Positions 3,057 through 63,399 of a stretch of 64,000 nucleotides of DNA are shown here, piece after piece (the stretch's first letter is position 1; each line of letters starts with the position of its first letter). Under the pieces are notes generated by a model. The model had not been told where the DNA came from. It did not search any database and saw nothing but the letters and a program-made list of their open reading frames with translations. A program made the position numbers and the translations under genes. The stretch covers positions 10,664,001 through 10,728,000 of the forward strand of contig CM055607.1 of the NCBI GenBank assembly GCA_029379385.1, in the 5' to 3' direction. The stretch is from Quillaja saponaria (Eukaryota; Streptophyta; Magnoliopsida; Fabales; Quillajaceae).

Positions 3057-3156
3057 NNNNNNNNNNNNNNNNNNNNNNNNNNNNNNNNNNNNNNNNNNNN
3101 NNNNNNNNNNNNNNNNNNNNNNNNNNNNNNNNNNNNNNNNNNNNNNNNNNNNNNNN
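3057..3156. other. Assembly gap (100 N)
   Basis: Exactly 100 consecutive N, the conventional placeholder for a gap of unknown size. It lies inside an inverted repeat and at the boundary of a segment duplicated at 60358 onward, both of which are common reasons for an assembly break. Confidence 0.99.
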
Positions 3157-4455: not shown

Positions 4456-4689
4456 TGAATTAGGGGAATCAATTAAATGTGCCAAAATTATTTCAAAGCG
4501 TTCCATAAAACTTCAATTTATGCACAAGAAGACAATTGCGGCAGGCCAACTAGATACAGAAATAAATCCATGATTACTAAACTAACTTAATTATTTCTAA
4601 CATGGTCCCGTTAATTGGTATTAGCCCCAACCAGATCTCATACGTTTAAAATTTTTGAGAAAGGCTGAAGAGCTAATTCATATAAATTT

Positions 4690-4755
4690 TCTGTTAATGC
4701 ATGTAAGAGTTAATGGCCGGCCATTTGAGACTTCCAATCCTTCTTGTTTCACACA
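4690..4755 (-). pseudogene. Kunitz inhibitor relic, short internal piece
   Basis: Read on the minus strand this piece matches the segment coding for the first cysteine region and the following EGLEISNGRP part of the gene at 10803-11504. It is a fragment of only about 20 codons. On its right it is joined to a Kunitz promoter segment (ACAAGGCATGTGGATCACC), which places coding sequence directly against promoter DNA and shows an internal deletion. Confidence 0.75.
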
Positions 4756-7560: not shown

Positions 7561-9170
7561 AAAAAATTATACATCCATTCAATTTTAAGCATGGTTAATG
7601 ATGATAATTGGCGATTCTTGAACCAGTCTAATTTTTTCATTAACATCAACAAAGTACTTCTGCTAAGGATTTTTTTTTTTTTTCTCTCATCTAAGTGATA
7701 AACTCCACTCAATCAACTAAAGAATATAAGTGCATTAAAAATATCTAAAGTATATGCCAAACAAATTACGAACGTGTTGCAATGATACTTGATCTTTCTG
7801 TTTAAGTAGGGATCCGGATGTCTAATCCTGTTGGATAATTTTCCTTTTGTTTGAATAATTTGGTTCACGTTATATCGGGTCCGGTCGGATCTTACACGAT
7901 CCGATGCTTTTACAAAACTAAAATAAAATTAATTACATTTTATCACATAAACTACCACATGTTTTGTAATAATTTCTATAAACTATCAAATTAATTAGGC
8001 ACATAACTCCTTATTTGAATCATAATTAGCAAATAACCATCACTCGTCTAAATTATCCATTAACTCATGAGAGACTAAATTATTCTCAATCCAAGTTTTT
8101 TTTTTTTTTAATAGTTTCTTCTTTTTACATCTTTTTCTTTTCATTTTCTATGAAACTAAACTCTTTATATTGATTAAATTTTAGCATACATAAATAATAT
8201 TTGAATCATTAATAATTTATACTTCATTTTTATAATATTTACATTATTAATGGATTTACAAATGTTATTTTTCTCATTAATAAACTATACAAGTTGTTTC
8301 AACTTGCATTTTAGTGATAACATTTTCATTAAAAAAAAATTATTTTCTTATTATTGTATTACATATTGGGCTAGTTATTTGTTAATTATGATTAAAATAA
8401 CAGGTTATTTGCCAAATTTGACAGTTCACTGGAGGTTAATACAAAACGGGTAATAGTTCATGGGGATAAAGTGCAATTGACCCAATAAAATTAAAAAAAT
8501 CACCTAATTAAGCTTTCTCTCTCTTTTAAATCATTGTCTTAGGGACTTTTTGTGTTGAAGGGATGAGATTAAAAATATCATTTAACATTGTCTAGCAAGA
8601 TTTGAGAAAAAGAAAAAGAAATTAAATATGAAATACATTTTGGCGAACTATATATGATTTGTTCTAGGTTTCTTTTGTCACAACCTCAACAAATTTACAA
8701 ATCAAGTCCTCCGGGATAATAGTTTGTATACAATCCATGGTGTGGAATGGTTCACATTTTTTGGTTTTAAATCTAAGAAGAAAGAGAAGGAATGGAGAGA
8801 GAAAATATATAGTTTGATATGAGAGAGATTATAGAAGAGATTTATGGGTAGTTAATGAAATTAACTAATTCAATGCAAGATTGGGTTAGTCACTTGAGTT
8901 AGTTAAGTTTAGTATTAGGTTAACTCATATTGACTGTAATTTTGATATAGTTTATTTAAATACATGATAGTTATTATTTAGTTACTGTGAGAATGATGTG
9001 GTAGAGTAACTCTATGTAAATTTTTATACAATTAATTTATCAATTTATAGCAGGAAGATTCCTATTACTCATCTAGTTAACAAGATTTTCTATAATGTAA
9101 ATCGACAACCGAGAATCACGAATCTCGTCAGGTTGCTGTTGGAAGAAGCTCAAACAAGCACCAAATAGTT
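7561..9170. other. Intergenic DNA, no gene seen
   Basis: AT-rich sequence. Short open frames such as one at 8250-8453 have low-complexity composition and no recognisable domain. Nothing else was identified. Confidence 0.5.
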
Positions 9171-10802: not shown

Positions 10803-11504
10803 TCAGATACAACACTTAGAAAATATTCTAACAAGTGAAGAAGAAAAAAAAGACGTTGGAGAATTCTTATCTTCCTCTTCGGCATTGCTGGCCCATTCCT
10901 CAGCCTTTTTGAACCTGAACGTGAATGGTTTTATTTCATCACTCAGAGCCAAGTGTCTTTTCCCATCCTCATCAATATATATCCCAAGTGCCCTGCACAA
11001 AGTTGGGACATCCGACTCCGTTGGACAGAAAACAATCTTGTAATCGCTTTCCCCATCTTGCTCTATTGTAAATAAACTTGGAATTCTTTCGGATCCCGGT
11101 GTTTCAACTCCATTAGTACTCACAAACCTCACCCCGGTTAATTCCTTGACAAGCTTCCACACCATGGATTGGATACAAACTGTTATCCCGGAGGATTTGA
11201 TTTGTAAATCCGTGGAGGTTGTGACAAAAAGAAACTTGGAAAATACAGATGAAAATAAAAATGGCCTGCCATTTGAGATTTCCAATCCTTCTTGGTTCAC
11301 GTAGAGTGGGCATATGGTGTTGTTGTTAATGGTGCCAAGATTAAGCCCACCACCAAAGCCTCTAAACGCTGGCAAGATATAGTAATTGACACCCCATTGG
11401 AGTGGCTCACCATCTATGTCCATCACTGTTTCAGCTGAAGCTACCAATGGTTTTGTGGTTAGGACAAAGAAAAAGAAAGAGAGAACAAACAATGCAGGCT
11501 TCAT
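10803..11504 (-). CDS. Kunitz-type (STI family) protease inhibitor, altered C-terminus
   Basis: A single-exon gene for a 233-residue secreted inhibitor. The ATG at 11502-11504 is chosen because it begins a hydrophobic signal peptide (residues 1 to about 25). The alternative in-frame TTG at 11573 lies inside the TATA element. The STI N-terminal signature is seen as VMDIDGEPLQW (residues 28-37) with YYI after it. The four disulfide cysteines are at residues 65, 110, 160 and 170, the usual STI pattern. The reactive loop region is around SSVFSKF (residues 85-91). The last 20 residues (PTSFFSSSLVRIFSKCCI) are unlike the SSKYIQSVA-type end of its relatives. Another frame here does read LLEYFLSVV, so a base change in the T-run near 10848 probably swapped the tail and added two cysteines. 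Target protease cannot be told from sequence. Confidence 0.88.
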   Translation of the reverse strand: MKPALFVLSFFFFVLTTKPLVASAETVMDIDGEPLQWGVNYYILPAFRGFGGGLNLGTINNNTICPLYVNQEGLEISNGRPFLFSSVFSKFLFVTTSTDLQIKSSGITVCIQSMVWKLVKELTGVRFVSTNGVETPGSERIPSLFTIEQDGESDYKIVFCPTESDVPTLCRALGIYIDEDGKRHLALSDEIKPFTFRFKKAEEWASNAEEEDKNSPTSFFSSSLVRIFSKCCI

Positions 11505-15255: not shown

Positions 15256-15944
15256 TTCCATACAGCTTCCCTTGGAGCTCATCATCTCTTTCCCTTCCCC
15301 ACTTAACCATTTCATGCTGTTGCTGATCAGCCTGTGCTTGACACAGATGGTGAGCCACTCCAGTGGTTTACTAATTACTATATATATCTTACCCTATATT
15401 TGGGGACCTACTGGTGGTGGCCTTAGCCTTGGCACCCATAGAAACCAGTCCTGCACACTCTGTCACCCAAGAAACTTCCGAAGTTGAAAGGGGCTTCCTA
15501 GTAACATTTTCACCTGTGTCATCAGAATTACCTTTCGTCACCACATCCACTAATGTTAACATCCAGACGATAGCGCAAACAGATTGTGTAGACTCCCCGA
15601 GTGTGGAGGATTATCAAAGAATATACAGGGGTGTGATTTCTGGGTACTGATGGTATTCCATCACCAGGTTTCCATCACCAGGTTTCCATCACCAGGTATT
15701 GAGGGAATCGATAGCATGTTTAAGATAGAGAGGTCAGGAGAAGAAGCTGAAATTGTTGCCTACAATCTTGGTTTCTGTCCTAGGATTGTCCTAACTATAT
15801 GTAATACTCTTGGATTGTATTCTGATGTGGAGGAGCAAAAGATATGTGGCCATGAGTGATAAAATCCAACCATTCATATTTGTGTTCCAAAAGGCTTCTC
15901 CAGCTTCTTCAACTTCCTCAAACTATATTCAAAGTGTTGCATGA
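15246..15944 (+). pseudogene. Kunitz inhibitor pseudogene
   Basis: A near full-length but broken relative of the gene at 58142-58819. The leader segment CCTTGGAGCTCATCATCTC is joined directly to the end of the signal-peptide region, so the start codon and most of the signal peptide are deleted. The STI signature LDTDGEPLQW is intact at about 15338. Two extra bases in an ATATAT run then shift the frame before IWGPTGGGLSLGT. Other damage includes a changed second-cysteine region near 15590 and a 14-base unit present three times (15657-15697). The TSSNYIQSVA end and TGA (15942-15944) are still legible. The 188-residue open frame at 14921-15487 crosses from LINE to Kunitz DNA and is not evidence of function. 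Confidence 0.88.
15657..15697 (+). repeat. 14-base tandem triplication inside pseudogene
   Basis: TCCATCACCAGGTT occurs three times in a row, the third incomplete. It falls in the segment that codes for the loop before the third cysteine in intact relatives. Confidence 0.9.
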
Positions 15945-15953
15945 GGCGATTAC

Positions 15954-16187
15954 GATTACTCAGTGCATAGAGTGGGCAGGAGTTGTTGTTATGGGTGCCA
16001 AGGCTAAGACCACCTCCAGTAGGTCCCCAAATATGTGGTGAGACATAGTAATTATTAGTCCACCAAAGTGGCTCACCTTCTGAGTCCAGCACAAGCTCAG
16101 CAGAAGCAAGAAATGGTTTTGTGGTTATGAAGGAAAACAAAATTATATAGGCAGAGAGAGCTAGTAGTAGTGGCTAGTTTTCTTCAT
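15954..16187 (-). pseudogene. Kunitz inhibitor pseudogene, 5' third
   Basis: Read on the minus strand from the ATG at 16185-16187, this matches the first 75 or so codons of the gene at 49231-49899, down to the first cysteine (SCPLY). One base is missing after ATGAAGAAAACTAG, which puts stops into the signal peptide. The middle frame then reads LASAELVLDSEGEPL and IWGPTGGGLSLGT. It ends abruptly at about 15954, where it is fused tail-inward to the end of the plus-strand pseudogene. Its promoter, with AATTTATA at about 16256, is preserved. Confidence 0.88.
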
Positions 16188-17345: not shown

Positions 17346-18093
17346 GATAATTATAACATAATTAAATTATTGTCTACTAAAATTTGAGTGCTTTCCAATA
17401 TAAAAAGGTATTATAAATATTATATAATAACTAATTGGATAGGATTATATATTTGATGTTTTGAAATTCATTAAAAATTATGATATAGTAATAAAGTTAT
17501 ATTCGTGAAAAATAAATTAAAAATAAAATAAAAACTTCAAATACTATATACATTATAATTGAACATGACTTGCTTTTTTCGATGTTGTGTCATGAAATAT
17601 GAAATTTTAAATTAGAACATCGATTTCTTGTTGTCATAAAACTAAGAAAATAACATATTCCACCTCAAAAACTAAGAAAACGCAAATAGAACTTGAAAAG
17701 AGACTAACACTTTATATAGTAAAGTTTAGAACATGAAATATTGAGAGAATATGAAAAGAATAATTTATTAGATTAAAAGAATGTAAAATTAATGAGTAGA
17801 AAATATGTTTAAAATGGAAGAGATGAAAAGTTTTTTCAATTATAATTAAATTTTGGAAAATAAATAAGCATCCTGATCATTATAAATAACTACTTAAAAT
17901 ATGACATGTGGAAATAATACGAAAAAGTAAACAAAACATGAGAATTTTTGTAAATGAAATGATTGAGAAATTAATAACATATTTTTTAGATCTTTTGAGA
18001 GTACGAGAGTGTAAGTTTTTTTTTTAAAAAATAAAAAATTAAGGCGAAATTCACAAAAAAAATTCAGTAAATGTTGTCATAAAAAGAAATATA

Positions 18094-18290
18094 GAAAATA
18101 CAGGTGAAAATAAAAATCGCCTTCCATTTGAGACTTCCAATCCTTCTTGGTTCACATAGAGTTGGCATATAATATGGTGGTGTTGTTGATGGTGCAAAGT
18201 CTAAGCCCACCACCAAAGCCTCTAATTAATGGCTGCCTAGCAACAAATGGTTTTGTGGTTAGGACAAAGAAAAAGAAAGAGAGCAAAAGC
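18094..18290 (-). pseudogene. Kunitz inhibitor relic, signal peptide to first cysteine region
   Basis: Minus-strand relic of a gene like 10803-11504. It keeps the part coding for the TTKPL end of the signal peptide, a piece reading RGFGGGL-like residues, and the NQEGLEVSNG segment. The STI signature itself is deleted and the frame is broken. The start codon region has been lost. The following DNA to about 18340 (CAAGCTTCGTCTTCTTG) also occurs at 20800-20850 and 48390-48430. Confidence 0.75.
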
Positions 18291-19190: not shown

Positions 19191-19714
19191 AAATGTGCTA
19201 AAATTATTTCAAACGTGATCCATGAAACTTCATTTTATGGCAAGAAGACAATTGCGGCAGGCTAACTATAGATAGAAAAACAAATCCATGATTACAAAGC
19301 TAATTACTTATTTCTAACATTGACCCGTTAATAGGTATGCTCGACCCAAGACTTTCAGGGATTAGGTGTGTAAGATTTAATTGGATCCATTGTATTTAAA
19401 TTTAAGTGGGCCCCAATTTGATGATATGATGAGACAATGGACTGGTTGGTGAGTAAGATTTGTAAGTCAACGCCAAAGTCACATCTATCTTGTGATTTTC
19501 ATTTGGAATTCATTTGGTTTTGTTTTTCAAGTTCTAATATGATTCTTTTCTTTAATGATATTGAAGGTCCTTTGATTGCAGCATGCGACGCGGGTTCTGG
19601 GGGTTCTAAATTATGGGTTCTTTTTATTTGGAATCAAAAAACGGTTCGTTTGACACATGAACTTTGTTAAAAGACATACATAAACTTTGCATTTAGGAAT
19701 GCAGGTATATGTGT

Positions 19715-19980
19715 TTCAGAAAATACGTTTCACCATAACCATCCTTAGAAAAATACCTTCCAAGACCCTTACACAAAGTTGGGATATTAGAGGGACAGAA
19801 AACATTGTTGTAGGCAGGAAGTGATGTTCCAATACTCTCAATCACGAGTGATTCCTTCAATCCCAGTACCATTAGTAGACACAAGCCATAACCCAGTTGA
19901 TTCCTTCACAAGCTTCCACACCAGGGATTCTATATAGACTGTTTCATTAATCGTCTGGTTAAAGGAGTGTTTGTGGTGAC
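19715..19980 (-). pseudogene. Kunitz inhibitor pseudogene, 3' half
   Basis: Minus-strand C-terminal half of a Kunitz gene close to 49231-49899, starting at the same breakpoint (GTCACCACAAACACTCC) as the plus-strand pseudogene at 1418. The second cysteine codon has mutated in the TGTATAGAATCC-equivalent region, the segment before FVIES has small deletions, and the last 40 or so codons are missing so that the frame runs into 3' untranslated sequence. A 63-residue open frame (19693-19884) survives but lacks the conserved core. Confidence 0.85.
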
Positions 19981-20400
19981 CGGAGGACCAAAAGAAAATA
20001 CAATTATATAAAATGGAGGTCTTTCCTTCACTACTATTACTACACTTTCAAAAATGAGAGAGGATTAGTTGTCTTTTAATAAAGGGCTTATGAGCAATTA
20101 TATAAACATCAATGGCAACCAATAACTAAGGTAACATATTTCAATAATTTTTATGATACTTTTTTACACTTTTCGCTTTACACATGTGGCTCAGAAGAAA
20201 GTCGTTAGTCCACCCAAGCTCTAAACTTTTTTGATGCATAGAATGAGTTTTCTTTATAAAACTCTTTGTGCAAATAAATAATTTAAATATTTACTTAATA
20301 ATTTATTTAATTACATTTTACACAATGCATAAGCTTATATTACAAAGTTGTAGAGTCAAATCAATTATTAATTTAACTAATAACTATAACATAATTAAGT
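19981..20400. repeat. Shared flank block of truncated Kunitz copies
   Basis: Inverted partner of 1020-1417, including the immediate upstream segment GACCTCCATTTTATATAATT read on the minus strand. It is followed on the right by the AT-rich part also found at 17230-17400. Confidence 0.7.
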
Positions 20401-28436: not shown

Positions 28437-29075
28437 ATGAAGCTAGCAGCTTTCACCATCTTCCTTCTCTTAGCCCTGATGATGTCCACAAAACCATCGG
28501 TGGTTCATGGACAAGTAGTGCTTGACGCAGAAGGCGAGCCACTCGAGTGGGACAGAGATTACCATATCTTGCCAGCTTCCTGGGGAATTGAAGGTGGCGG
28601 CATTTCCCTTGGATTCTATAACAACAGCAGATGCCCATTATATGTTGTCCAAGATCGATCCATCCTCAAAGACGGCATGGCAGCAGCATTTTCATCGAAA
28701 ACTAAAGATCGTTTTGTCCGGGCATCTACTGATTTGTCCATCACAACCAGGGGTTCGATTGCTATATGTAGGGATTTATTGATGTGGAAACTTGTACATG
28801 AAACGGGAAGGCGTTGGCTAGTGAGTACTGGAACTCCTGAACCGGTAAATAGTTTGTTTCAGATTGTGCCTTACAAATCAAATTACTACACGATACGCTT
28901 CTGTCCAACTCCGACTGACATCCCAACTTTGTGTAAGGGACTGGGGCTTTATGTTGCTGAGGATAAGACTAGATATTTGGCTCTCAGTGATGATCTTAGA
29001 CCATACTTGTTCAAGTTTAGAAAGGCTGTCGATCCCTATGCTGCACAGCCTTTAAAAACTGTGGTTTCAGTTTAA
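28437..29075 (+). CDS. Kunitz-type (STI family) protease inhibitor
   Basis: An intact single-exon gene for 212 residues, close to the usual STI length. Residues 1-25 form a signal peptide ending near VVHG, so the protein should enter the secretory route. The STI signature VVLDAEGEPLEW is at residues 27-38 with DYHIL after it. Conserved cysteines are at 66, 111, 156 and 166, expected to pair first-second and third-fourth. The reactive loop falls around SSKTKDRF (86-93), rich in basic residues and different from its neighbours, which may suit a trypsin-like target; that is inference. There is one N-glycosylation sequon at residue 62 (NNS). The flanks are less repetitive than those of the other copies. 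It is the most diverged of the four intact genes. Confidence 0.93.
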   Translation: MKLAAFTIFLLLALMMSTKPSVVHGQVVLDAEGEPLEWDRDYHILPASWGIEGGGISLGFYNNSRCPLYVVQDRSILKDGMAAAFSSKTKDRFVRASTDLSITTRGSIAICRDLLMWKLVHETGRRWLVSTGTPEPVNSLFQIVPYKSNYYTIRFCPTPTDIPTLCKGLGLYVAEDKTRYLALSDDLRPYLFKFRKAVDPYAAQPLKTVVSV

Positions 29076-32399: not shown

Positions 32400-33190
32400 G
32401 TTCGAATCAATTAACGTAAATCTAGGCTAATTCATTCGAATGATATTTGGACTATCTTACTTATAACTTAACGAATTCTTATATTTGATCCAATAAAAAA
32501 AAAACAATGTACACTGAAATTTTTTTTAAAAAAAATTACCCCTAAAAAATTATTCAAATCTACAAAATCAATTAAAAGGAAAAACCTTGTGAGTTGTTAC
32601 GGAACCTCTTCTATAACTTTTCACCAATCACGTACAACACGAAAAGCATAATTCTTTTTCTTTCTGCCGAAGGAAGTATATATACCCAACTACTTAAGAA
32701 ATTTTATATTCTTTTAACCAAAACAACATGTACCGTTAATAAATAATTTATTAATGACGCCAGTTTATGCGCATCTTGTTAAAAACAATATAAAAAAAAA
32801 TCACTGCTGTCCACCATAAATCAAGCATTGCTCTTTATTGGAGGTTTTATACTCTTATTAGATCTCCCAACTTATCTTTTTCTTACCGTTAACAATAAAA
32901 CAAAAGATTTCTTACTGATCCGTTTCTTCTCACATACACTAAAATCCTCACATCACTAATTATACAAGAAACACACTGCAGGATATTCTTTATTGAATCG
33001 ATAAAGGATGATTACATCTGAATTACAAAACAACTTCCATACTTTTTTCAACTGCTACATATGAGCACAAGTTCATTGGAATACATGAGCTATTATTCTT
33101 AAACATATTACGAGTCTAGAAAGACTTCAAGCTATATTTAAACACACAAACAATATCACATCCCTTTTATTGAACCCAGCACTTAATCTC
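32400..33190. other. Intergenic DNA, no gene seen
   Basis: AT-rich stretch between the orphan promoter repeat and the 3' end of the NLR gene. Nothing was recognised except that its right end probably holds the 3' untranslated region and polyadenylation site of the minus-strand gene. Confidence 0.4.
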
Positions 33191-33199
33191 CATATACTT

Positions 33200-33261
33200 C
33201 TAGATTGGCTTGTTTACATTCTTGCATTGACGGCCATCTTTACCTTCATTGGTATCAAAAC
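33200..33261 (-). other. Possible last exon of the NLR-GRAM gene
   Basis: After the TGA at 33417 the frame remains open to a GTAATT donor at 33383. An acceptor TTTTGCAG precedes 33261, and the joined frame continues GFDTNEGKDGRQCKNVNKP to a TAG at 33200-33202. Either this is a spliced 3' untranslated exon or the TGA is a recent premature stop. Confidence 0.35.
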
Positions 33262-33382
33262 CTGCAAAATTGCATGATGATCACCTTGATTGTATATACA
33301 TATGTATATATAGTAGTACACAAGTTAATGAAAATTCCCTTGTAAATTAAGTTTTAAATATTGTAATTAACGTCAAAATTAC

Positions 33383-35011
33383 CTTGTAAACCAGCTCTCC
33401 AGTATGGAACAAGAGATCATGAACTTTTGAATGGAGAAGGTAGCTTTTTCCGTAGAAACGAAATTTTCCCTTTGCCACTTTGTCGAACCATTTTTGCCCC
33501 CAAGGTGAACGTACTCTTCATAGTATCAGAAATTTTCTCTTCCTCTTGAATAACTTTTTCCCCCAAACTCGATGAACATTTCTCATTTTCAGATATTTTG
33601 GGACCCTGATTTACTGCAAAAATCCACATAAAACATACTTAAGTTAATTACTCAGAAGTAATTCATTTTCCTATATTGTGTAAGGTTAATTACTCTAGTA
33701 CATCTTCGACAAAAAAATAATAAATAAGTAAATAAAAAATATATATGTATATAACATATATTTGGTTACCACTTGGTATTCACGTGTAATTCATGGTTAT
33801 TCAACTTTTCGGTGTAATTTTGACGTAACAATTGTTTGGTTTTGCAAGTTTTCCTTTCTCTTTCTCTCTTTTGTGTGTGTGTGTTTTGGTGTGTAAATTA
33901 TTTTGTGTGTCAGGATATAAATTACTAACCCTGCTCACAGATCTCACATGCAACAGAACTCGTGCCTTTGCATTGTAATTCATTCTCCTGTTCCGGTTCC
34001 ATTACAATTGCATTGCTTAATTCATCAGCAACTTCATGTGCAGCTTCATCTGCAACTTCAACTGCAACTTCAACTGCAACTTCATCTGCAACTTCATGTG
34101 CAGTTTCATCTGCAACTTCTATTGCAACATGTGCAGCTTTAACTGCAGCTTCATCAATTTTCATTGTCATTTTCTCCGAGTTCCTTGAAATGGCCTTCCG
34201 TAGATTCTTGAAAGCACTTTCATATCGTAGGAACCCCCTAAACTGATATTTAGATTTATCTTCAGTCACAATCTCTATGTACTTCTGAGTTGGCTCCTTC
34301 ACATTCCTGCTTAGGGTGACGTCTTTAATATTACCTATTAGTATCACAAGCTGCAAAACAATTTGCATGAAGTATTGTTAGTACAAAATGATATATATAT
34401 ATATATATATATATTTCGGGTACCATGTCAAGGATAATTACCTTATCATCAAAGTCTTCACTGCAGAAAGCAACCTTTTCAGTAGAGATAAAAACGGCTC
34501 CTGGAATAGGAGCAGCTGTTGTATATTTGTAGCAATGTGAGGCCTTCAACAATTCCTCCCCTTCTTTCATCCCAAAAGTAATCTTGAAAATATTTTCTCT
34601 TCCACCCATAACAACAAATGCTGCCCCAAAATTCAATGCACTTGACACAGTGTCTGACAGTTTAGAGCGCAGTCTAACTGCAATACCATGTATTGTATTA
34701 TTTTGCTTACTATTTTGATGGAATTTAATTTAATTTGTGAAGTATCTATATATGAATATGGTGGGATACAGAAAATAAGTTACGTACCATGCTCACTCAT
34801 CCTATAGGCAAAACTGATGCTTTTTTCTCCTAATGTCTTCTTCTGTTCTATCTTTGCATCCCCTTCATATGCACTCAAAAAGAAAGTCGATTGTTACTTT
34901 GTATTCAGCCACGAATTATTGAGAATGCAAGATAGATTAATGGTTTAAACATAAAGAATTTGAACTTACCTTCCTCAGCAGTGGTCCGTTTGTCATCTTT
35001 AATTGTAATCT
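33383..35011 (-). CDS. GRAM (GEM-like) exons joined to the NLR gene
   Basis: Five exons (35011-34970, 34862-34788, 34677-34441, 34350-33930, 33613-33383) in consistent phase with the C-JID exon. They encode FAYRMSEHVRLRSKLSDTV, then NIFKITFGMKEGEELLKASHC with TTAAPIPGAVFISTEKVAFC, and VTLSRNVKEPTQKYIEIVTED. This is the order of the GRAM domain in plant GEM-like proteins (EHVRLGPK, EKLLKAxQCYLSTTAGPIAGLLFIS, SQKYxEIVT). GRAM domains bind membranes or phosphoinositides. An Ala/Val/Glu-rich repeat tail follows, then an exon with EKISDTMKSTFTLGAKMVRQ, which looks like the beginning of a second GRAM copy. The TGA is at 33417-33419. No separate ATG start for a stand-alone GEM-like gene is evident, which favours fusion to the NLR. 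Confidence 0.75.
34013..34155 (-). repeat. Short coding repeat, Ala/Val/Glu-rich tail
   Basis: Imperfect tandem repeats built on GATGAAGTTGCA and relatives, coding for HEVADEVAVEVAVEVADEAA-like sequence. It sits after the GRAM domain in exon 34350-33930. The pattern could form a long helix; this is inferred from composition only. Confidence 0.8.
34388..34414. repeat. TA microsatellite in NLR intron
   Basis: About 13 TA units inside the intron between the two GRAM exons. Confidence 0.85.
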
Positions 35012-35188
35012 CTGATCATTAAATCATAAAAGCTTTATGAAATTAATCAATTGGATTAGAAACAAAAGGATAAGACTACGTGCACGAAAAATATAAAAGG
35101 ATCCCACATAACCCCTCCTGAAACAAAAATAATTACTTCCACTAAATGTTAAATGAATCAAACAGAGAAATGTCACCACAGCCTTTAC

Positions 35189-35844
35189 CTTTGCCAATGT
35201 TGGTCCCTCTAGCCCACATTTTAGTCTCATCTTCCTCGTAATATACCATTATAGCCTTATCTTTATCTATCGTTTTGGAAATTCGAAAATATTTCAGTAG
35301 CTGCAACGAGTTGTCAATTTTTTCAACTTCTGTACATGAAACCGCATCTTCTCGTTCTCTAGCCACATCATGATCAAATTCAAAGGTCACAATGGCATTC
35401 TGAGCGTTAGGGATGGTGAATTGGATGTCATCCATGTTTTTGTCTTTATACATGAACACCGCACCACTTCACTGTCCCAATGGAAATTACAAATGAGACC
35501 TCCACATGATTCCAATCTTCTTCCAGATATTTGTCAAGGGTCTGCCATTGCTGGGAGGACATATGAGCTCGAAGATCATGCAGCCATACGTGATGCCTTG
35601 ATTCTAGTGAAAAACTATCTTTATTTGCATAGACTCTAACACCATTTATCAACAAGCAGACCTCAAAGTGAACGTAGGTATCCAATCCTCCAGGACCTCC
35701 ATAAACTGAACATATAGCAATTACTGGGAACTTTCCATGTTGAACCCAGAATGAAACAGATCCTCCTTTGCTACGGTGGTCAAACCAATCAGCGACATCT
35801 CTTCCGGTTACTCGGACTTCTAGTTTCGGAATCTCATGCAAAAC
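35189..35844 (-). CDS. C-JID exon of the NLR gene
   Basis: Starts VLHEIPKLEVRVTG, then the post-LRR C-JID core WFDHRSKGGSVSFWV and GKFPVIAICSVYGG, and ends the jelly-roll with VKWCGVHV. In TIR-NLRs this domain helps bind the recognised effector. A base is missing near 35449, giving GTATAA; the next frame continues YKDKNMDDIQFTIPN, as relatives do, and stays open to a GTAAAG donor at 35189 in phase 1. The C-terminal part after the C-JID includes YYEEDETKMWARGTNIG. Confidence 0.8.
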
Positions 35845-36041
35845 CTGCTACATGATTAAGAACCATAATTAACCATTGAACAACTAGTAAGTATATTCTC
35901 TAGAGAATATAATATGAAACAGTTAACCATGCATTCTGGTGTTACTTCTTCTTTCACTTAAATATGAGACCACAAGCATGAATACAAAAACTTGTAGATA
36001 TGCTGCAAATGAATGTGACATGTATAGAGAAAGAGAAAAAC

Positions 36042-37090
36042 CTGTCTCAATAACAAGTTTGATGATTCTGTAGTCAAGTTCTTGCAAAATGTTGCAGTTA
36101 TGTATTGCAGCTGTTGTGGAATTGCTTGAATTTCCTGAAGATGGCTGCAAAAAATCCAACTGAAGAGACTCCAAACGGAGGAGTTCTTTGATGCATGCCG
36201 GGGAGAGTTACAAATTTGTTTCTTGACAGTTTTAATTTGGTCAGTCCGGGAAAACTACTGAGGATTATAAGAACATCTTCATCTGATAGATTACAATCTT
36301 CAACATTCAGCAAAACCAAGTCTAGATGTGAAGTCACAGAACTTTCAGATGACTCAATCAGTGAAACCATGTCTAATTGTTCAGTAACAGAAGAACTTTC
36401 GATGGGCTCGCTCATTGAATCCAAGTCCATTTGTGAAGTAACAGAAGAGCTTTCAGTGGATTCACTCATTGAAACCAAATCCAACTGTGAATTAGAAGGA
36501 GAAATTTCGGCGGACTCACTCGGTGAACCCAAGGCCAACTGTATAGTAACTAAAGAAGTTTCAGTAGACTCAGAAGAATTGGTTGATTGTTCAGCATAAC
36601 GTTTAAAACATTTGCGAAGCTTGGGACAATTTCCCATATCAAGCTCCTTAAGATTTTTCAACATAAGAAAGCTGCTTGGTAGATCAGTAAGACTTGTGCA
36701 CTTCCTCAAACATAATTTTTCAAGCCCAAAAAGTTTCCCAAAAGAAGCTGGCAATTTCTTTACTGCAGTACACTCTCCCACATCAATGATTCTAATATTT
36801 TCCATCTTCTCCAAAACATCTGGGAACCTCACTAGTGTTGAGCATTTCCTAAGACTAAGACTTTCGAGAGAAGGCAAATAAATTTTAGATGGAAAACTTT
36901 TGAGGCTGTGGCATCCTTTTGCACTCAGCTTAACAAGCTTTGATAGAAGTCCAACTGAACGATGAATGTTCTCTAAATTAGTACAGTAGTCAAGATACAG
37001 TTCCTCTAAGTTTGGGGTTTCAGATAAGTTGGGTACATTTCTAAGGGATGCACAGTGACTGAGATCGATATAAATCAAGTGCTCGCACTT
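36042..37090 (-). CDS. LRR exon of the NLR gene with Ser-rich insert
   Basis: Leucine-rich repeats of the TIR-NLR type (LIYIDLSHCASLRNVPNLS, then units with LEELYLDYCTNL, LSLRKCSTLVRFP and LEKLCLRKCTSLTDLP). After PKLRKCFKRYAEQ comes a serine/threonine-rich insert of about five 18-residue units (ESTESSSVTSQMDL and variants), then LRR returns with LNVEDCNLSDEDVLIILSSF and LTKLKLSRNKFVTLP. One extra base in the G-run at 36200-36203 and one in the A-run at 36149-36154 shift the frame. Past them the frame gives the expected HLQEIQAIPQQLQYI and ends before a GTTTTT donor. Confidence 0.8.
36300..36590 (-). repeat. 54-base tandem repeat within the LRR exon
   Basis: About five imperfect units of 51-54 bases coding for (S)ESxESSSVTSQLDLVSM-like sequence, all in the same frame. 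The serine-rich composition differs from the LRR on both sides, so it probably loops out of the solenoid. Confidence 0.8.
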
Positions 37091-37195: not shown

Positions 37196-37261
37196 CTCGA
37201 ATTGTGCTTTGGATATAAGAGACCTATAAGGCAAATAGCTATTAGGCAAGAACTCCAACTT
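37196..37261 (-). CDS. NLR exon 4 (22 codons)
   Basis: A 66-base exon, too short for an ORF search, reading from KLEFLPNSYLPY to ISKAQFE. It is flanked by a TTTGCAG-type acceptor and a GTATAG donor and is in phase 0 on both sides. Such short LRR-encoding exons are usual in TIR-NLR genes. Confidence 0.75.
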
Positions 37262-37441: not shown

Positions 37442-37717
37442 CTTCACAGGAACTTCTAATGTGAGATCAAAACTATGAGGCAAGTTGAGTATGACAAGTT
37501 TCATTGGATCAAAATCAGCTGGCAAAGAGGGTGAAGGATAATTCTTCCAGTCAAGCACTCTCAAACTACTTGGGAGATATTTGGGACCTTCGAAAAAATA
37601 TGCATTTTCAACCACTAAAAACCCAAGGTTTTTCATCTTTTCAAAGGCTTCACCACTCCAGTCAACCATTTCTTCTTTGGGCAAGATGAGCACTATGGCT
37701 TCAATTTTCTCCGTTCC
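37442..37717 (-). CDS. NLR exon 3 (linker to LRR)
   Basis: Begins GTEKIEAIVLILP after a TTATTAG acceptor. This is the GTexIEgIvL motif that starts the LRR region in TIR-NLRs. It continues with FEKMKNLGFLVVENA and LPSSLRVLDWKNYPS, and ends EVPVK before a GTATAG donor. The frame is open throughout. Confidence 0.85.
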
Positions 37718-37906: not shown

Positions 37907-39004
37907 CGAATTTTCCTTCAATACTTGAAGAGCATCTTCATGAAACCATAATCTACTGCGGTTGCTAGGATCTGTTGCTGATTCTTGCAGTACAATTTCC
38001 CTACCCATTTCTTCTATTATGTTATGCATCCATAGGGTCTGATCTTCTTTCAGTATTACTAGGGACTTGTCGCGAAGTACATGGATACCAAAATCTGGGT
38101 GGAAACCAAAACTTTTCAGCACTTTTTTACACGTTTGCACTGACATTCCTTTGAAGAAGCACGCAATATCAAGAAAAATTTGCTTCTCATTGTCATCCAA
38201 ATTATCATAGCTTATTCGAAGTATATTTTGAATGCCTTTATTTGGAACTCTTTCGTACTTTTCCAATGTGCTTTTCCATTCATCCATTACTTTACCAATC
38301 AAATCAGAACCTATGATTTTTAAGCCAATGGCAGGTTGCTGCCATATTGCACTGCACGTGCTGAAATTTCCTCATAACCTTCAGCAGGTTCGTCATTTTT
38401 AAAGGCACTCCAACAAAACAATTTAAGGGCATCGTCATCATTGAGTGCCTTCATCTCATATATTATATCAATTTCATGAGCAATTAGCAAATGCTTATCC
38501 CTTGTTGTTACAAGGATTGTGCTGCCAGAGCCAAACCAATCACTTCCCCCAACTAACATCTGTAATTGCTCAAGTTGGTCTACATCATCAAGAACTATTA
38601 GAACTTTCTTATGGAGAAGGCCGTGCTGTATTCTATCCATTCCTTCCTTAACATCTCTTAGACTGATGTCCTTAACGCCAAGGGTATCAGCAAGAAGTTT
38701 CTTTTGAAGTTGTACCAATCCTTCTTTTGATGAAGTTTCTCTAACATTTGAAAGAAAGCTCTTGCATTCATATTGATCAGCAATATGGTTATAAACACCT
38801 AGTGCAAGTGTTGTTTTTCCTATTCCACCAAGTCCAAAAACTCCTAACATTTGAACATCATAATCGGACTCCTTCTCCAGTTGTGAAATCACATCTAATA
38901 TTTGAGATTCTAATCCAACTGGGTGATTTGCAACATGTAAAAGATCACGATCTAATCTACTAGAGACATCTTCAATGATCCTTTCAATAAACTCGAATTC
39001 GTAT
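37907..39004 (-). CDS. NB-ARC exon of the NLR gene
   Basis: Nucleotide-binding switch domain. It starts after the acceptor CTGGCAG with YEFEFIERIIEDVS. Seen in order: P-loop GVFGLGGIGKTTLA, kinase-2 KVLIVLDDVD with the aspartate-tryptophan type spacing of TIR-NLRs, RNBS-B GSTILVTTRDKHLL, RNBS-C region YEMKALNDDDALKLF, the GLPLAL-equivalent NLPLA, RNBS-D FLDIACFFKG, and the MHD motif written as MHN. A base is missing just after NLPLA (near 38322), which puts a TAA in frame; the following frame continues with the expected IGSDLIGK-type sequence. The aspartate-to-asparagine change in MHD is notable because this residue holds the domain in its ADP-bound off state. Ends at a GTAAGA donor. Confidence 0.85.
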
Positions 39005-39262: not shown

Positions 39263-39769
39263 CCAAATTTGAAATGTGAACCGGAACAAGTTGGCGAGTT
39301 CATGCATAGCCGACCTCCATTTTTTCACCCTCTCCATGTCAATATTGGGCTTCTTTTCATGCTCAGCCAACGCGTCTCCAACAACATTTCTTTGATGTCG
39401 TATGTCCGACGGATCTACTTTGTAAAAGACAGGATGAACCCACTGTCCCTTTGATTTCATACACTCAATGATAGTAACAAGTTCATCAAGGCACCGGCCA
39501 GAATCAGCATAGTTTTCAGAGAAGACAACGATAGAAACTCTTGATTCCTCAATTGCTTTGAGAAGAGTTGGTGAAATCTCTTCTCCTCTCTTAAGCTTCT
39601 CATCATCTATGAATGTGTAGATTCCCCGTTGGTACAAAGCATTATAGAGATTTACGGTAAAACCATAGCGGGTATCTTCACCTCTAAAACTTAGGAAGAC
39701 ATCGTAAGTCCAAGTTTGGCTACCGGTGGGGCAGGAGGAGGAATCCTCTTCATGTGTCTTGATGGGCAA
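39263..39769 (-). CDS. TIR-domain exon of the NLR gene
   Basis: Encodes the TIR domain: WTYDVFLSFRGEDTR at residues 20-34, FIDDEKLKRGEEI at about 53-65, and CLDELV at 93-98, where the glutamate (residue 96) matches the NADase catalytic position known for plant TIRs. The usual tryptophan before CLDEL is arginine here. The donor site GTACGT follows 39263. In the written frame the end reads NLFRFTFQIW. One base less in the AA at 39285-39286 gives the family ending GSHFKFG and the correct phase for the next exon. With the base present, splicing into the next exon meets a stop after a few codons. That could leave a TIR-only product. No in-frame ATG exists between an upstream TGA near 39838 and the TIR core. 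Confidence 0.8.
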
Positions 39770-39860
39770 TGTAAATATGAAGACTTTGAGTATAACTATG
39801 TATGCTACATGCCTGAAAGGATCAGAAAATTGTAGTCAGTGTTCACCAACTATATGGTAG

Positions 39861-41934: not shown

Positions 41935-42125
41935 TCGATTGCATCACGAACTTTTAAATGGAGAAGGCAACTCGAAATTTTCTCAATGCCGCTTTATTTA
42001 ACTAATTTTGTTTCTAAACTCAATGCGTTCATCATAATTTTAGAAGCTTTCTCTTTCTCATTCTCTTGAAGAACTTGTGCCTTCAAACTTCTTGCAGTCG
42101 AGTCAAATACCTTATGAATTTAATC
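41935..42125 (-). pseudogene. Relic of the last NLR-GRAM exon
   Basis: On the minus strand this aligns with exon 33613-33383: a segment resembling VIQEEEKISD is seen as VLQENEKEKAS, then a shifted stretch with LSLETKLVK, a stop, and finally GAGAAAATTTCG followed by the CTTCTCCATTTAAAAGTTC end. It carries stops and frameshifts. No other part of a second NLR was found nearby, so only the 3' end was copied or kept. Confidence 0.65.
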
Positions 42126-49230: not shown

Positions 49231-49899
49231 TCAAGCTACAGTCTGAATAACTTGTGAGAAAGTTGTAGCTGAAAGACTTGTTTCCTTAAAGAACACGATT
49301 GGGAATGGTTCGATTTCATCACCCCAAGCCAAATACCTTTCACCATCCTTAGAAAAATACCTTCCAAGACCCTTACACGAAGTTGGGATATTATTGGGAC
49401 AAAAAGAAATCTTGTAGACAGGAAGTGATGTTCCGATACTCTCAATCACGAACCTACTAGCGATTCCTTCAGTCCCTGGTGAAGCAGTACCATTAGTAGA
49501 CACCAGCCACAACCCAGTTGATTCTTTCACAAGCTTCCACACCAGGGATTCTATACACTCTGTTTCATTAATCGTCTGGATGGTTAGAGGGGTGTTTGTG
49601 GTGACAAAAATAAAACGAGAAAATACAGGTGAAAATTTTATTGGTAGGCCTCTTTGAACTTCGGATTTTTCTTGTATGACATAGTGTGGGCAGGAGTTGT
49701 TGAGGGTGCCAAGGCTAAGACCACCTCCAGTAGGTCCCCAAATATGTGGTGAGACATAGTAATTATTAGACCACTGAAGTGGCTCACCATATGCGTCGAG
49801 CACAAGTTCAGCAGAAGCAAGAAATGGTTTTGCGGATATGAAGGAAAGCAGAATTATAAAGCCAGAGAGTGCTAGTAGTAGTGGACTAGTTTTCTTCAT
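49231..49899 (-). CDS. Kunitz-type (STI family) protease inhibitor
   Basis: An intact single-exon gene for 222 residues. The ATG at 49897-49899 starts a strongly hydrophobic signal peptide ending near residue 30 (FLASA). The STI signature LVLDAYGEPLQW is at 32-43, followed by YYV. Cysteines are at 70, 115, 167 and 175, giving the usual two disulfides. The reactive loop is about residues 90-97 (SPVFSRFI); compared with soybean STI SPYRIRF, the P1 position would be phenylalanine rather than arginine, suggesting a non-trypsin target, by inference. NNS and NET sequons are present. The C-terminus FSQVIQTVA is typical. It is the parent-like copy for pseudogenes at 1418, 15954, 19715 and 63120. Confidence 0.94.
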   Translation of the reverse strand: MKKTSPLLLALSGFIILLSFISAKPFLASAELVLDAYGEPLQWSNNYYVSPHIWGPTGGGLSLGTLNNSCPHYVIQEKSEVQRGLPIKFSPVFSRFIFVTTNTPLTIQTINETECIESLVWKLVKESTGLWLVSTNGTASPGTEGIASRFVIESIGTSLPVYKISFCPNNIPTSCKGLGRYFSKDGERYLAWGDEIEPFPIVFFKETSLSATTFSQVIQTVA

Positions 49900-58141: not shown

Positions 58142-58819
58142 ATGGAGGCAACTAGTCCACTACTACTATTACTCTCTTGCTTCCGGATTCTCTTTGCCTT
58201 CACCACAAAACCATTTCCAACTGCTGCTGCTCAACCTGTACTTGACACAGATGGTGAGCCACTCCAGTGGTATACTAGGTACTATGTCCTACCACATAAT
58301 TTTGCTCTTGGTGGTGGGCTTAGCCTTGGTACCCTTAACAACAAGACCTGTCCTCTCTATGTCACCCAAGAAATTTCGGAAGTTGAAAATGGCTTCCCAG
58401 TAACATTTTCACCTGCATCTTATCCTTCTAATTACTTAGCTTCCATAGACACATCCCTTCTTCTTAACATCCGGACAATCGCACAAACAGTGTGTCTAGA
58501 ATCCCTGGTTTGGAAGGTTGGGGAACAAGCAAATGGGTTGTGGGTGGTGAGTACTAATGGAGAGATTAATGCTGGAAGCAGTAGCACCTTTATGATTCAG
58601 ACAAGTCAAGATGTACCTGGTGCCTACACTATTGTGACTTGTCATGGTCTTGGTATGCTACCTGTATGTAGCCATCTTGAATCATCACAGTTTGTTGAGA
58701 ATGGTAAAAGATATATCACCGCGGGTAGTATGGTGAACGGCTTCACAGTTATGTTCAAAAAGGCTCCAAGTCCTAGAACAACTTCCTCAAAATATATTCA
58801 AAGTGTTGCTATGGAGTGA
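58142..58819 (+). CDS. Kunitz-type (STI family) protease inhibitor
   Basis: An intact single-exon gene for 225 residues. The ATG at 58142 (MEATSPLLLLLS) is preferred over the in-frame TTG at 58133, which is not an expected plant start. The signal peptide runs to about residue 30. The STI signature PVLDTDGEPLQW is at 32-43, followed by YYVL. Cysteines are at 70, 118, 167 and 176. The reactive loop, about SPASYPSNYLAS (90-101), is longer than in the other copies and has no basic residue, so a trypsin target is unlikely; that is inference. An NKT sequon is at residue 68. The C-terminus SSKYIQSVAME has two extra residues. The pseudogene at 15246-15944 is its nearest relative in the window. Confidence 0.94.
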   Translation: MEATSPLLLLLSCFRILFAFTTKPFPTAAAQPVLDTDGEPLQWYTRYYVLPHNFALGGGLSLGTLNNKTCPLYVTQEISEVENGFPVTFSPASYPSNYLASIDTSLLLNIRTIAQTVCLESLVWKVGEQANGLWVVSTNGEINAGSSSTFMIQTSQDVPGAYTIVTCHGLGMLPVCSHLESSQFVENGKRYITAGSMVNGFTVMFKKAPSPRTTSSKYIQSVAME

Positions 58820-59509
58820 TAATCATGATTTAGATTGTGTTATGCATAATAAGCGCTAAATAGTATACGTAGCGATTTGCATTAATCAATTCTCTGTTTT
58901 TCATTAATTTGAAGCTTTGTGTCAGTCCCTATAAAGTTGTCCGGGTGCAATGCACTTCCGTACGTACGTTTGTTTTGTAATTTGTTTCGTTAATTAAATG
59001 TTTTATTGATTTTCTACTTAATGTTTTTCATGCATGCAGATGGTGCATTTTAATTGGTTTAATTTATACATTGTCATTTTATATTGATTTGTGTTTTATT
59101 TTACTAAAAAAGGAAAATCTTTATTAATATAAACAATTTTCATTATCACGAACCCAAATTGGACCTCAAAATAGGAGTCCAAATTCAGGTTGAAAGGCCT
59201 AAAATGAAGCCCGAAATGTTTTGAATTCGCATTGTTAAAATAATCTCGTTACAAATTATTCCTCTCTCATGAGATTTTGCATTGCTATATATATTGAAGC
59301 AGATTTTCTTCCACTCATTTGGGTCACTTTTTTTCAATTTCTTCACTGATTTATGGATGTGAAACAAAAAATTTGGCCAGATTGATAATTTTTAAATATT
59401 TTTAAATTTTTTGAGAGAAAAAAAAAGGAGTGTGAGTTTACAAAAAATTTTGAGATGAAATTCAAAAGAAATCAATACATGTTGTAATAAAAATAAATTT
59501 AAAAAATAC

Positions 59510-59590
59510 AGATGAAAATAAATACATAGAGTGGGCATATATTGATGGTGTTGTTAATGGTGCCAAGCTTAAGCTCACCACCAAAGAAAA
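59510..59590 (-). pseudogene. Kunitz inhibitor relic, short
   Basis: Minus-strand remnant of the first-cysteine and GGGLNLGTINNN segments of a gene like 10803-11504 (AGAGTGGGCATAT, GTTGTTAATGGTGCCAAG, CCACCACCAAAG). The rest is missing. Confidence 0.65.
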
Positions 59591-61402: not shown

Positions 61403-62050
61403 TCATTGTTCCCTATGTTATAAATACATTAATTTACTCGGTAATACATTTTATATAAGGTTAGATCTAAGTCCAACTCAATTCATGATGTGATGAAAAT
61501 TAATTCTTACTTACATGGATATACTTATATATATATATACAAGTGTTCATTTATCATTAATTTAATTAATTTTAATCATCTAATCACAATAAGTTAAGTA
61601 AACATATGTTGAATTATGGAGTTATAACACAAACGAAAGAAATGACGGCTACCTAGAAATTGAAACAAATTAATCCCCGGATACGCACAAATGATTCCAA
61701 ACAGGTCCAATTGATTTATCCGAGGACGAGGCGAAATACTATGTAGCTATGAATTAGGGGAATCAATTAAATGTGCCAAAATTATTTCAAAGCGTTCCAT
61801 AAAACTTCAATTTATGCACAAGAAGACAATTGCGGCAGACCAACTAGATACAGAAATAAATCCAGGATTACTGAAACTGACTTAATTATTTCTAACACGG
61901 TCCCGTTAATTGGTATTAGCCCCAACCAGATCTCTTACGTTTAAATTTTTTGAGAAAGGCCGAAGAGCTAATTCATATAAATTTTCTGTTAATGCATGCA
62001 AGAGTTAATGGCCGGCCATTTGAGACTTCCAATCCTTCTTGTTTCACACA
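60358..62050. repeat. Segmental duplication, right copy (partner 3157-4755)
   Basis: Direct copy of the block that follows the assembly gap. It differs by small indels, including expanded TA runs at about 61355-61400, and by an extra segment near 61580-61625. It continues past 62050 into sequence that is deleted in the left copy. Confidence 0.9.
61352..61400. repeat. TA microsatellite
   Basis: Nearly continuous TA repeat of about 45 bases, much longer than the corresponding place in the left copy (4140-4150). Confidence 0.85.
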
Positions 62051-62130
62051 GAGTGGGCATATATATATGTATGTATATATGGTGGTGGAGGTGGTGTTAA
62101 TGGTGCCAAGTTTAAGCTCACCGCTAAAGA
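62010..62130 (-). pseudogene. Kunitz inhibitor relic
   Basis: Minus-strand remnant with the SNGRP-type segment (GGCCGGCCATTTGAGACTTC), the first-cysteine segment (CACAGAGTGGGCATAT), a TA/TG run inserted in what was coding sequence, and the LNLGTINT part. It is the fuller version of the relic at 4690-4755. Confidence 0.75.
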
Positions 62131-62800: not shown

Positions 62801-63119
62801 TAAAACATATTTTATGGAAGAAGGTTTTAAGTTGAAATTTTTATAAATTTTTTCAATCACGCTATGAATAATCTAAGTTGAATTGGATTGAACAAAATTA
62901 ATAGAAATATCATACTAACCGGAGATCACTGACCATTAAAATGATACATATTTTTTGCGTAGAGCATATTCCTTTTTTTTTTTTTTTTTGGGGTAGATAG
63001 GTAGGCTTCGTTTTAATTTACCTTGTAAGTGGTCCAAATCATATTTCTTATTTTTAATCTGTCCAAGTTCATCCCATTTGTTTGTGTTAATGTAAAAGTT
63101 TATATTAACACACTTGCAA

Positions 63120-63399
63120 TAAATGGGTGAACATTTATTGGTAGGCCGTTTTGAACCTCAGATCTTTCTTGGGTGACATAGTGTGGGCAGGACTTGTTGT
63201 TATGGGTGCCAAGGCTAAGACCATCTCCAGGAGGTCCCCAATTATGTGGTAAGACATAGTAATTATAAGACCACTGAAGTGGCTCATCAGTTGAGTCCAG
63301 CAGAAGCTCAGCAGAAGCAAGAAATGGTCTTGCGGATATGAAAGAAAGCAGAATTATAAAGCCAGAGAGTGCTAGTAGTTGTGGACTAGTTTTCTTCAT
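63120..63399 (-). pseudogene. Kunitz inhibitor pseudogene, 5' half
   Basis: Minus-strand gene start with promoter, signal peptide (MKKTSPQLLALSGF) and mature N-terminus to GLPIN, about 92 codons, closely matching 49231-49899. After that the sequence leaves the family and meets a stop at 63100. The second, third and fourth cysteines and the reactive loop are therefore lacking. The signature has changed to LLLDSTDEPLQW (glycine to aspartate). The promoter, with AATTTATA at about 63466, is intact, so a short secreted peptide could be made. Loss of the core makes inhibitor activity unlikely. Confidence 0.88.

Follow-up and report, generated by a model that had tools for sequence, protein, structure and literature searches.

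Does a TIR-NB-ARC-LRR receptor gene (TNL) of Quillaja saponaria run on into a GRAM domain, or do two neighbouring genes only look like one? The question is raised by a locus of assembly GCA_029379385.1, on contig CM055607.1 (positions 10,664,001-10,728,000). This whole stretch of 64,000 nucleotides (nt) is called the window hereafter, and all coordinates refer to it. A first-pass annotation had proposed a TIR-NBS-LRR-CJID-GRAM fusion at this place. The architecture is supported here by the order of the domains, their common strand, splicing that is compatible in frame and a 177-base gap devoid of in-frame ATGs. A working receptor is not supported for this copy, because its NB-ARC and C-JID exons are broken, features absent from that annotation, and its open TIR frame lacks an ATG ahead of the domain. 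As judged from the DNA, the locus is probably one transcription unit, a TIR-NB-ARC-LRR-C-JID gene that acquired a C-terminal GRAM of the GEM type and whose present copy is frame-broken.

Receptor domains and a GRAM tail on the same strand

The receptor gene lies on the minus strand, from 39.8 to 36.0 kb, and continues into a C-JID exon and five tail exons (Table 1). Pfam profile searches of the pieces gave, in this order on that strand, TIR (PF01582, E-value 2.3e-48), NB-ARC (PF00931, 1e-22) with its winged helix (PF23282 WHD_ROQ1, 1.4e-21), an RPS4B-like LRR (PF23286 LRR_13, 6.3e-24), a C-JID-like segment and GRAM (PF02893). All the profiles named by accession in this list scored above the Pfam cut-off. 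The C-JID profile (PF20160) was matched from position 2 to 96 of 98 with 23.8 bits (E-value 5.7e-05), just below the curated cut-off of 24.1. The solved structure closest to the composite receptor was that of Roq1, with 495 bits overall and a top stretch covering residues 18-790. The TIR, NB-ARC and LRR domains of a TNL are therefore present and ordered on a single strand; no single frame is open through all of them after splicing.

The five minus-strand exons announced downstream of the C-JID exon were all recovered, and their GT/AG borders could be re-derived. All tail joins are in frame. The phase-1 joins quoted earlier are present, but phase 1 is not general, the five joins from the C-JID exon onward having phases 1, 1, 1, 0 and 1. 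Since tail exon 1 has phase 1 at both ends, it could be skipped with the frame unchanged. The GRAM assignment was confirmed on the joined tail, with 47 bits for a cut-off of 23.6 and a near-complete match (profile positions 3-106 of 112, that is 104 positions).

Codon usage was scored with a model trained on the TNL exons, which adjoin the tail within one gene; the samples are small. The claimed frame ranked first in five of five tail exons (+0.11 to +0.30 per codon), and in the two shortest exons one other frame was slightly positive as well (+0.11 and +0.03). The five introns and the stretch following the stop codon scored negatively in all three frames. Chance occurrence of the tail exons is ruled out by the GRAM score, which is far beyond chance, together with this frame-specific signal. 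The frame of the tail is intact throughout.

Two segments of the tail, EH-VRL...KLSDTV and QKYIEIVTED, have a putatively GEM-like wording; tail exon 2 presumably shares this likeness. We infer the GEM resemblance, as we do any function of the tail. Against solved structures, the tail gave only a marginal match (4tyz, E-value 0.46). Scans with the 260-residue tail showed no relative in bacterial and archaeal contigs (86 pattern matches, none confirmed) or in viral contigs (no pattern match), which is no surprise for a plant gene. The VADE-rich stretch that follows the GRAM domain is encoded by a 12-nt tandem repeat (33997-34140).

Table 1. Exons of the receptor gene, exons of the tail and GRAM relics, in window coordinates.
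Feature	Position	Strand	Basis and remarks
TIR open frame and exon	39263..39835	-	PF01582; upper bound marks where the open frame begins rather than a mapped start codon; donor GT after 39263
NB-ARC and winged-helix exon	37907..39004	-	PF00931 in first frame, PF23282 in second; no frame open throughout
Exon 3, start of LRR region	37442..37717	-	GT/AG borders, phase 0; inside the Roq1 alignment
Exon 4, small (22 codons)	37196..37261	-	GT/AG borders, phase 0
LRR exon 5, 3' end approximate	36042..37090	-	PF23286; 54-nt repeat; overlapping frames
C-JID exon	35189..35844	-	PF20160, 23.8 bits; donor AAAG/GTAAAG (slash marks the cut); frame-broken
Tail exon 1, 42 bases	34970..35011	-	Phase 1 at both ends
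Tail exon 2, C-terminal SISFAYRMSEH, leads into GRAM region	34788..34862	-	Splice borders, codon signal
Tail exon 3, first half of GRAM	34442..34677	-	PF02893 over joined exons
Tail exon 4, second half of GRAM, then VADE-rich repeat	33930..34350	-	PF02893, repeat, codon signal
Terminal tail exon with stop	33417..33613	-	Remnant of a second GRAM unit (its first half)
Relic, intron and second-half exon of second GRAM unit	33185..33341	-	68% identity to 34270-34444, blastn 1.7e-5
Relic of a further terminal (GRAM-2-type) exon, upstream of TNL	41943..42089	-	66%, blastn 4e-7

One gene or two neighbours

The junction leaves a separate GRAM gene hardly any space for its own start. Between the C-JID exon and tail exon 1 lie only 177 bases, and they hold no in-frame ATG. 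When the frames of tail exons 1, 2 and 3 were followed backwards, a stop came after 2, 11 and 18 codons, respectively, before any ATG. On the coding strand, the polyadenylation signal AATAAA is missing between 35625 and 33171, and occurs at 33171 and 32994, just past the tail. With so short a gap and no in-frame ATG in it, the sequence is best read as a fused gene.

Several observations weigh against it. The weaker poly(A) signal ATTAAA occurs at 35003, 34734, 34729 and 34329. Past the donor, the C-JID frame runs on through 15 codons, counting the split one, to a TAG at 35144-35142, so that a non-fused end could be made by intron retention. In-frame ATGs at 35435, 35249 and 35219 (all in the C-JID exon) and at 34800 would permit a short GRAM-only protein. 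The Roq1 alignment, in the stretches displayed, stops short of the C-JID. Finally, the frame was kept in the tail and lost in the receptor, as would also be the case for a separate GRAM gene still under selection; by a rough estimate only, this difference in frame retention is not significant.

The rival explanation built on such points is that of two neighbours, a decayed TNL whose last exon is the C-JID exon, with its stop at 35142, and a truncated GEM-like gene or fragment that has lost its N-terminal exons, at a place where GRAM relics form a local array. The open frame running to the TAG and the in-frame ATGs at 35219 and 34800 suit it, as do the GRAM relics that flank the TNL (33.2-33.6 and 41.9-42.1 kb), possibly an old GEM-like array. 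Against it stands the 177-base gap, in which neither an in-frame ATG nor AATAAA is found. The phases of the C-JID exon and of tail exon 1 also agree, as they would about one time in three by chance alone. We regard two neighbours as unlikely, though worth keeping in mind. Fusion is the more economical reading of the DNA, and the best one; the single transcript is inferred.

A second GRAM unit and its relics

In sequence, the terminal tail exon is similar to the GRAM domain's first half. Their proteins aligned with a score of 50 (2000 shuffles gave a mean of 22.3 and a maximum of 43), and their DNA with a score of 72 (maximum of 51 in 200 shuffles). Downstream of this exon, the relic at 33185-33341 scored 84, versus a maximum of 43 among 400 random stretches of the window. 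This second, partly deleted unit indicates that the GRAM part had been duplicated.

These data bear on another rival, in which a promoter within the receptor gene drives the GRAM tail by itself, giving a small protein that was retained for a GEM-like role which it still has. The intact frame of the tail, its coding signal in five of five exons and the in-frame ATGs upstream of GRAM would all accord with such a protein. The terminal exon, being the stump of a lost GRAM copy, speaks for drift instead, and we consider expression of the tail alone improbable.

The relic at 41943-42089 scored 132, versus at most 49 among 400 random window stretches. Its place, some 2.1 kb upstream of the open TIR frame and on the strand of the TNL, is where a neighbouring tandem copy would have its 3' end, and the relic is a hint of a second copy of the fusion. 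A GRAM second-half exon was not found on either side of it (scores of 42 and 49, for a mean of 42.8 and a maximum of 75 among 200 random stretches). Searching the window by tblastn with TIR, LRR, C-JID and tail pieces revealed no further copy; the NB-ARC was less tested, one of its two pieces being misframed. The positions of the relics fit both a tandem neighbour of which only the tail survived and an old GRAM array entered by the TNL.

Frame breaks in the receptor part

Stop codons in the three frames located two breaks. In the NB-ARC exon, the P-loop frame stops at 38322 and the winged-helix frame is closed at 38374, which places the break between these positions. In the C-JID exon it lies between 35470 and 35449, the first frame ending at 35448 and the second being closed at 35471. 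Addition of the second frame extends the C-JID profile match from position 90 to 96. This longer match, and the NB-ARC and winged-helix sequence that flanks the first break, point to frame changes in the assembled sequence. LRR-like residues also switch frame near 36.2 kb, next to single-base runs, which makes one or two extra breaks likely. The phase at the end of the TIR exon does not fit the NB-ARC exon, and in the open TIR frame no ATG stands in frame ahead of the domain; alternative splicing or an upstream exon, instead of breaks, could account for these last two features. With its frame broken at least twice, the receptor cannot be encoded in full by the assembled sequence. A TNL-C-JID-GRAM(-GRAM) gene has probably become a pseudogene or a degraded allele here, unless this copy was mis-sequenced.

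In the domain-bearing stretches the damage consists of frame changes only, with no in-frame nonsense codon and no lost splice border. The P-loop GLGGIGKTT and the CLDEL stretch of the TIR domain are preserved. All this, and the single-base runs adjoining the changes near 36.2 kb, would be expected if the fusion were real and working and the breaks were assembly errors. Errors are not general, however, given four intact open reading frames (ORFs) of Kunitz inhibitors and an intact GRAM tail. Decay is common here, since the window also holds Kunitz copies that carry stops and gaps or are reduced to fragments, and the MHD motif reads MHN. An intact gene hidden by assembly errors seems rather doubtful to us; it shares the fusion with the explanation that we prefer, so that confidence in the one does not exclude confidence in the other. 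As to the breaks themselves, decay and assembly error both fit.

A window riddled with errors throughout was also considered, and is ruled out by the four intact Kunitz ORFs.

Two further observations concern the receptor exons. The MHN triplet stands at 38021-38029 of the NB-ARC region; changes of the MHD motif alter activity in other nucleotide-binding leucine-rich repeat receptors (NLRs). LRR exon 5 contains a Ser/Glu-rich unit of 54 nt (18 codons) repeated four times in tandem (36338-36553), an unusual insertion between LRRs.

Surroundings of the locus

Around the TNL lie four intact, single-exon ORFs of Kunitz-type protease inhibitors, at 10902-11504 (-), 28437-29027 (+), 49234-49899 (-) and 58142-58810 (+). 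Pfam was searched with two of them, which matched PF00197 (1.3e-45 and 3.5e-32). Remains of further Kunitz genes, either decayed copies or fragments and marked by stops and gaps, were found at 1382-1767, 4654-4752, 8674-8748, 15289-16173, 18060-18232, 19663-20031, 59471-59585, 61949-62059 and 63022-63390, and testify to much gene birth and death in the region. The segment 14000-16000 is richer in G+C (43% over 14-16 kb) and carries a zinc-knuckle-like ORF at about 14.4-14.7 kb, perhaps a retroelement fragment. A scaffold gap of exactly 100 N occupies 3057-3156. No Rfam match at gathering score was obtained between 30 and 46 kb (4227 families), and a tRNA scan, run with the bacterial-code setting, found none.

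Comparison with known receptors and GRAM proteins

Receptors of the Roq1/RPP1 type, TIR-NLRs with a C-JID (PDB 7jlu, 7jlv, 7crb), have the same order of TIR, NB-ARC, Roq1-type winged helix and LRR, which in the present copy are followed by a C-JID-like segment. The copy described here differs from them in its broken frame and in reading MHN for MHD. The GRAM tail sets it apart as well: Roq1/RPP1-type receptors are not known to carry a GRAM domain after the C-JID.

With GEM and the GEM-related proteins (GRE, GER), the tail has the PF02893 GRAM domain in common. In the text available of PMC4778130, GRAM is the main feature of these proteins, which have one each. Here, by comparison, the GRAM unit follows a receptor and once had a second unit beside it, and a separate N-terminal exon was not found.

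An extra, non-receptor domain on an NLR is also what defines NLRs with integrated domains, or decoys (NLR-IDs); in the present case it is C-terminal. GRAM is not known as a common integrated domain, as the first-pass annotation remarked, in agreement with a term search of the main text, without supplements, of two NLR-ID surveys of 2016. No GRAM domain was met there, PMC4759884 giving no match and PMC5067614 a single one, the name of a fungus in a reference. Nor was a GRAM-bearing NLR described in the portions available of the open-licence literature searched, a scope outside which supplementary domain tables, the likely place for a rare domain, and subscription papers fall. In walnut, precipitation is linked both to a GRAM gene and to 13 NBS-LRR genes in a cluster, which in the text available are not called fused with it (PMC8554829). 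A free GRAM gene of bean is listed in the accessible part of PMC9370732. Two other candidate papers were set aside: in the parts available, "GRAM" occurs in PMC10241880 only through the cited title of a paper on GER5, and in PMC13269891 it is a unit of mass. A GRAM tail would thus be an unusual integrated domain within a kind of NLR that is already known; we do not claim it as the first.

A possible history and role of the fusion

In the fused gene that we favour, the C-terminus of an ancestral receptor would have acquired a GEM-type GRAM unit, which was then duplicated, the second unit being later deleted in part. The intact form may have worked as Roq1 and RPP1 do: contact of an effector with the LRR and C-JID would release the NB-ARC, the released receptors would tetramerise, and the TIR domains would then hydrolyse NAD+. 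This mode of activation is established for Roq1 and RPP1 themselves. The GRAM domain could have served as an integrated bait for effectors that hit GEM-related lipid-signalling proteins. Alternatively, it could have been a tether to phosphoinositides or phosphatidic acid, placing the receptor at the membrane. Both roles are suggested by the binding of GEM to phosphatidylinositol monophosphates and phosphatidic acid, seen only when plant extract was added (PMC4778130, in the text available).

More tentatively, there may be in this plant a living lineage of TIR-NLRs with one or two C-terminal GRAMs of the GEM type, which bind membrane phosphoinositides or bait effectors aimed at GEM-related abscisic acid/lipid signalling, and of which the window holds a degraded or mis-sequenced member. 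This is possible rather than probable on the sequence at hand.

Its broken frame makes the present copy a lead only, whose value lies in the finding of an intact relative. The integrated domains of NLRs reveal which host proteins are attacked by pathogens. If the fusion is true, the receptor's GRAM domain would mark GEM-related, phosphoinositide-binding proteins as targets of pathogens, which can be tested, and it would also provide a route by which a TIR-NLR may reach the membrane.

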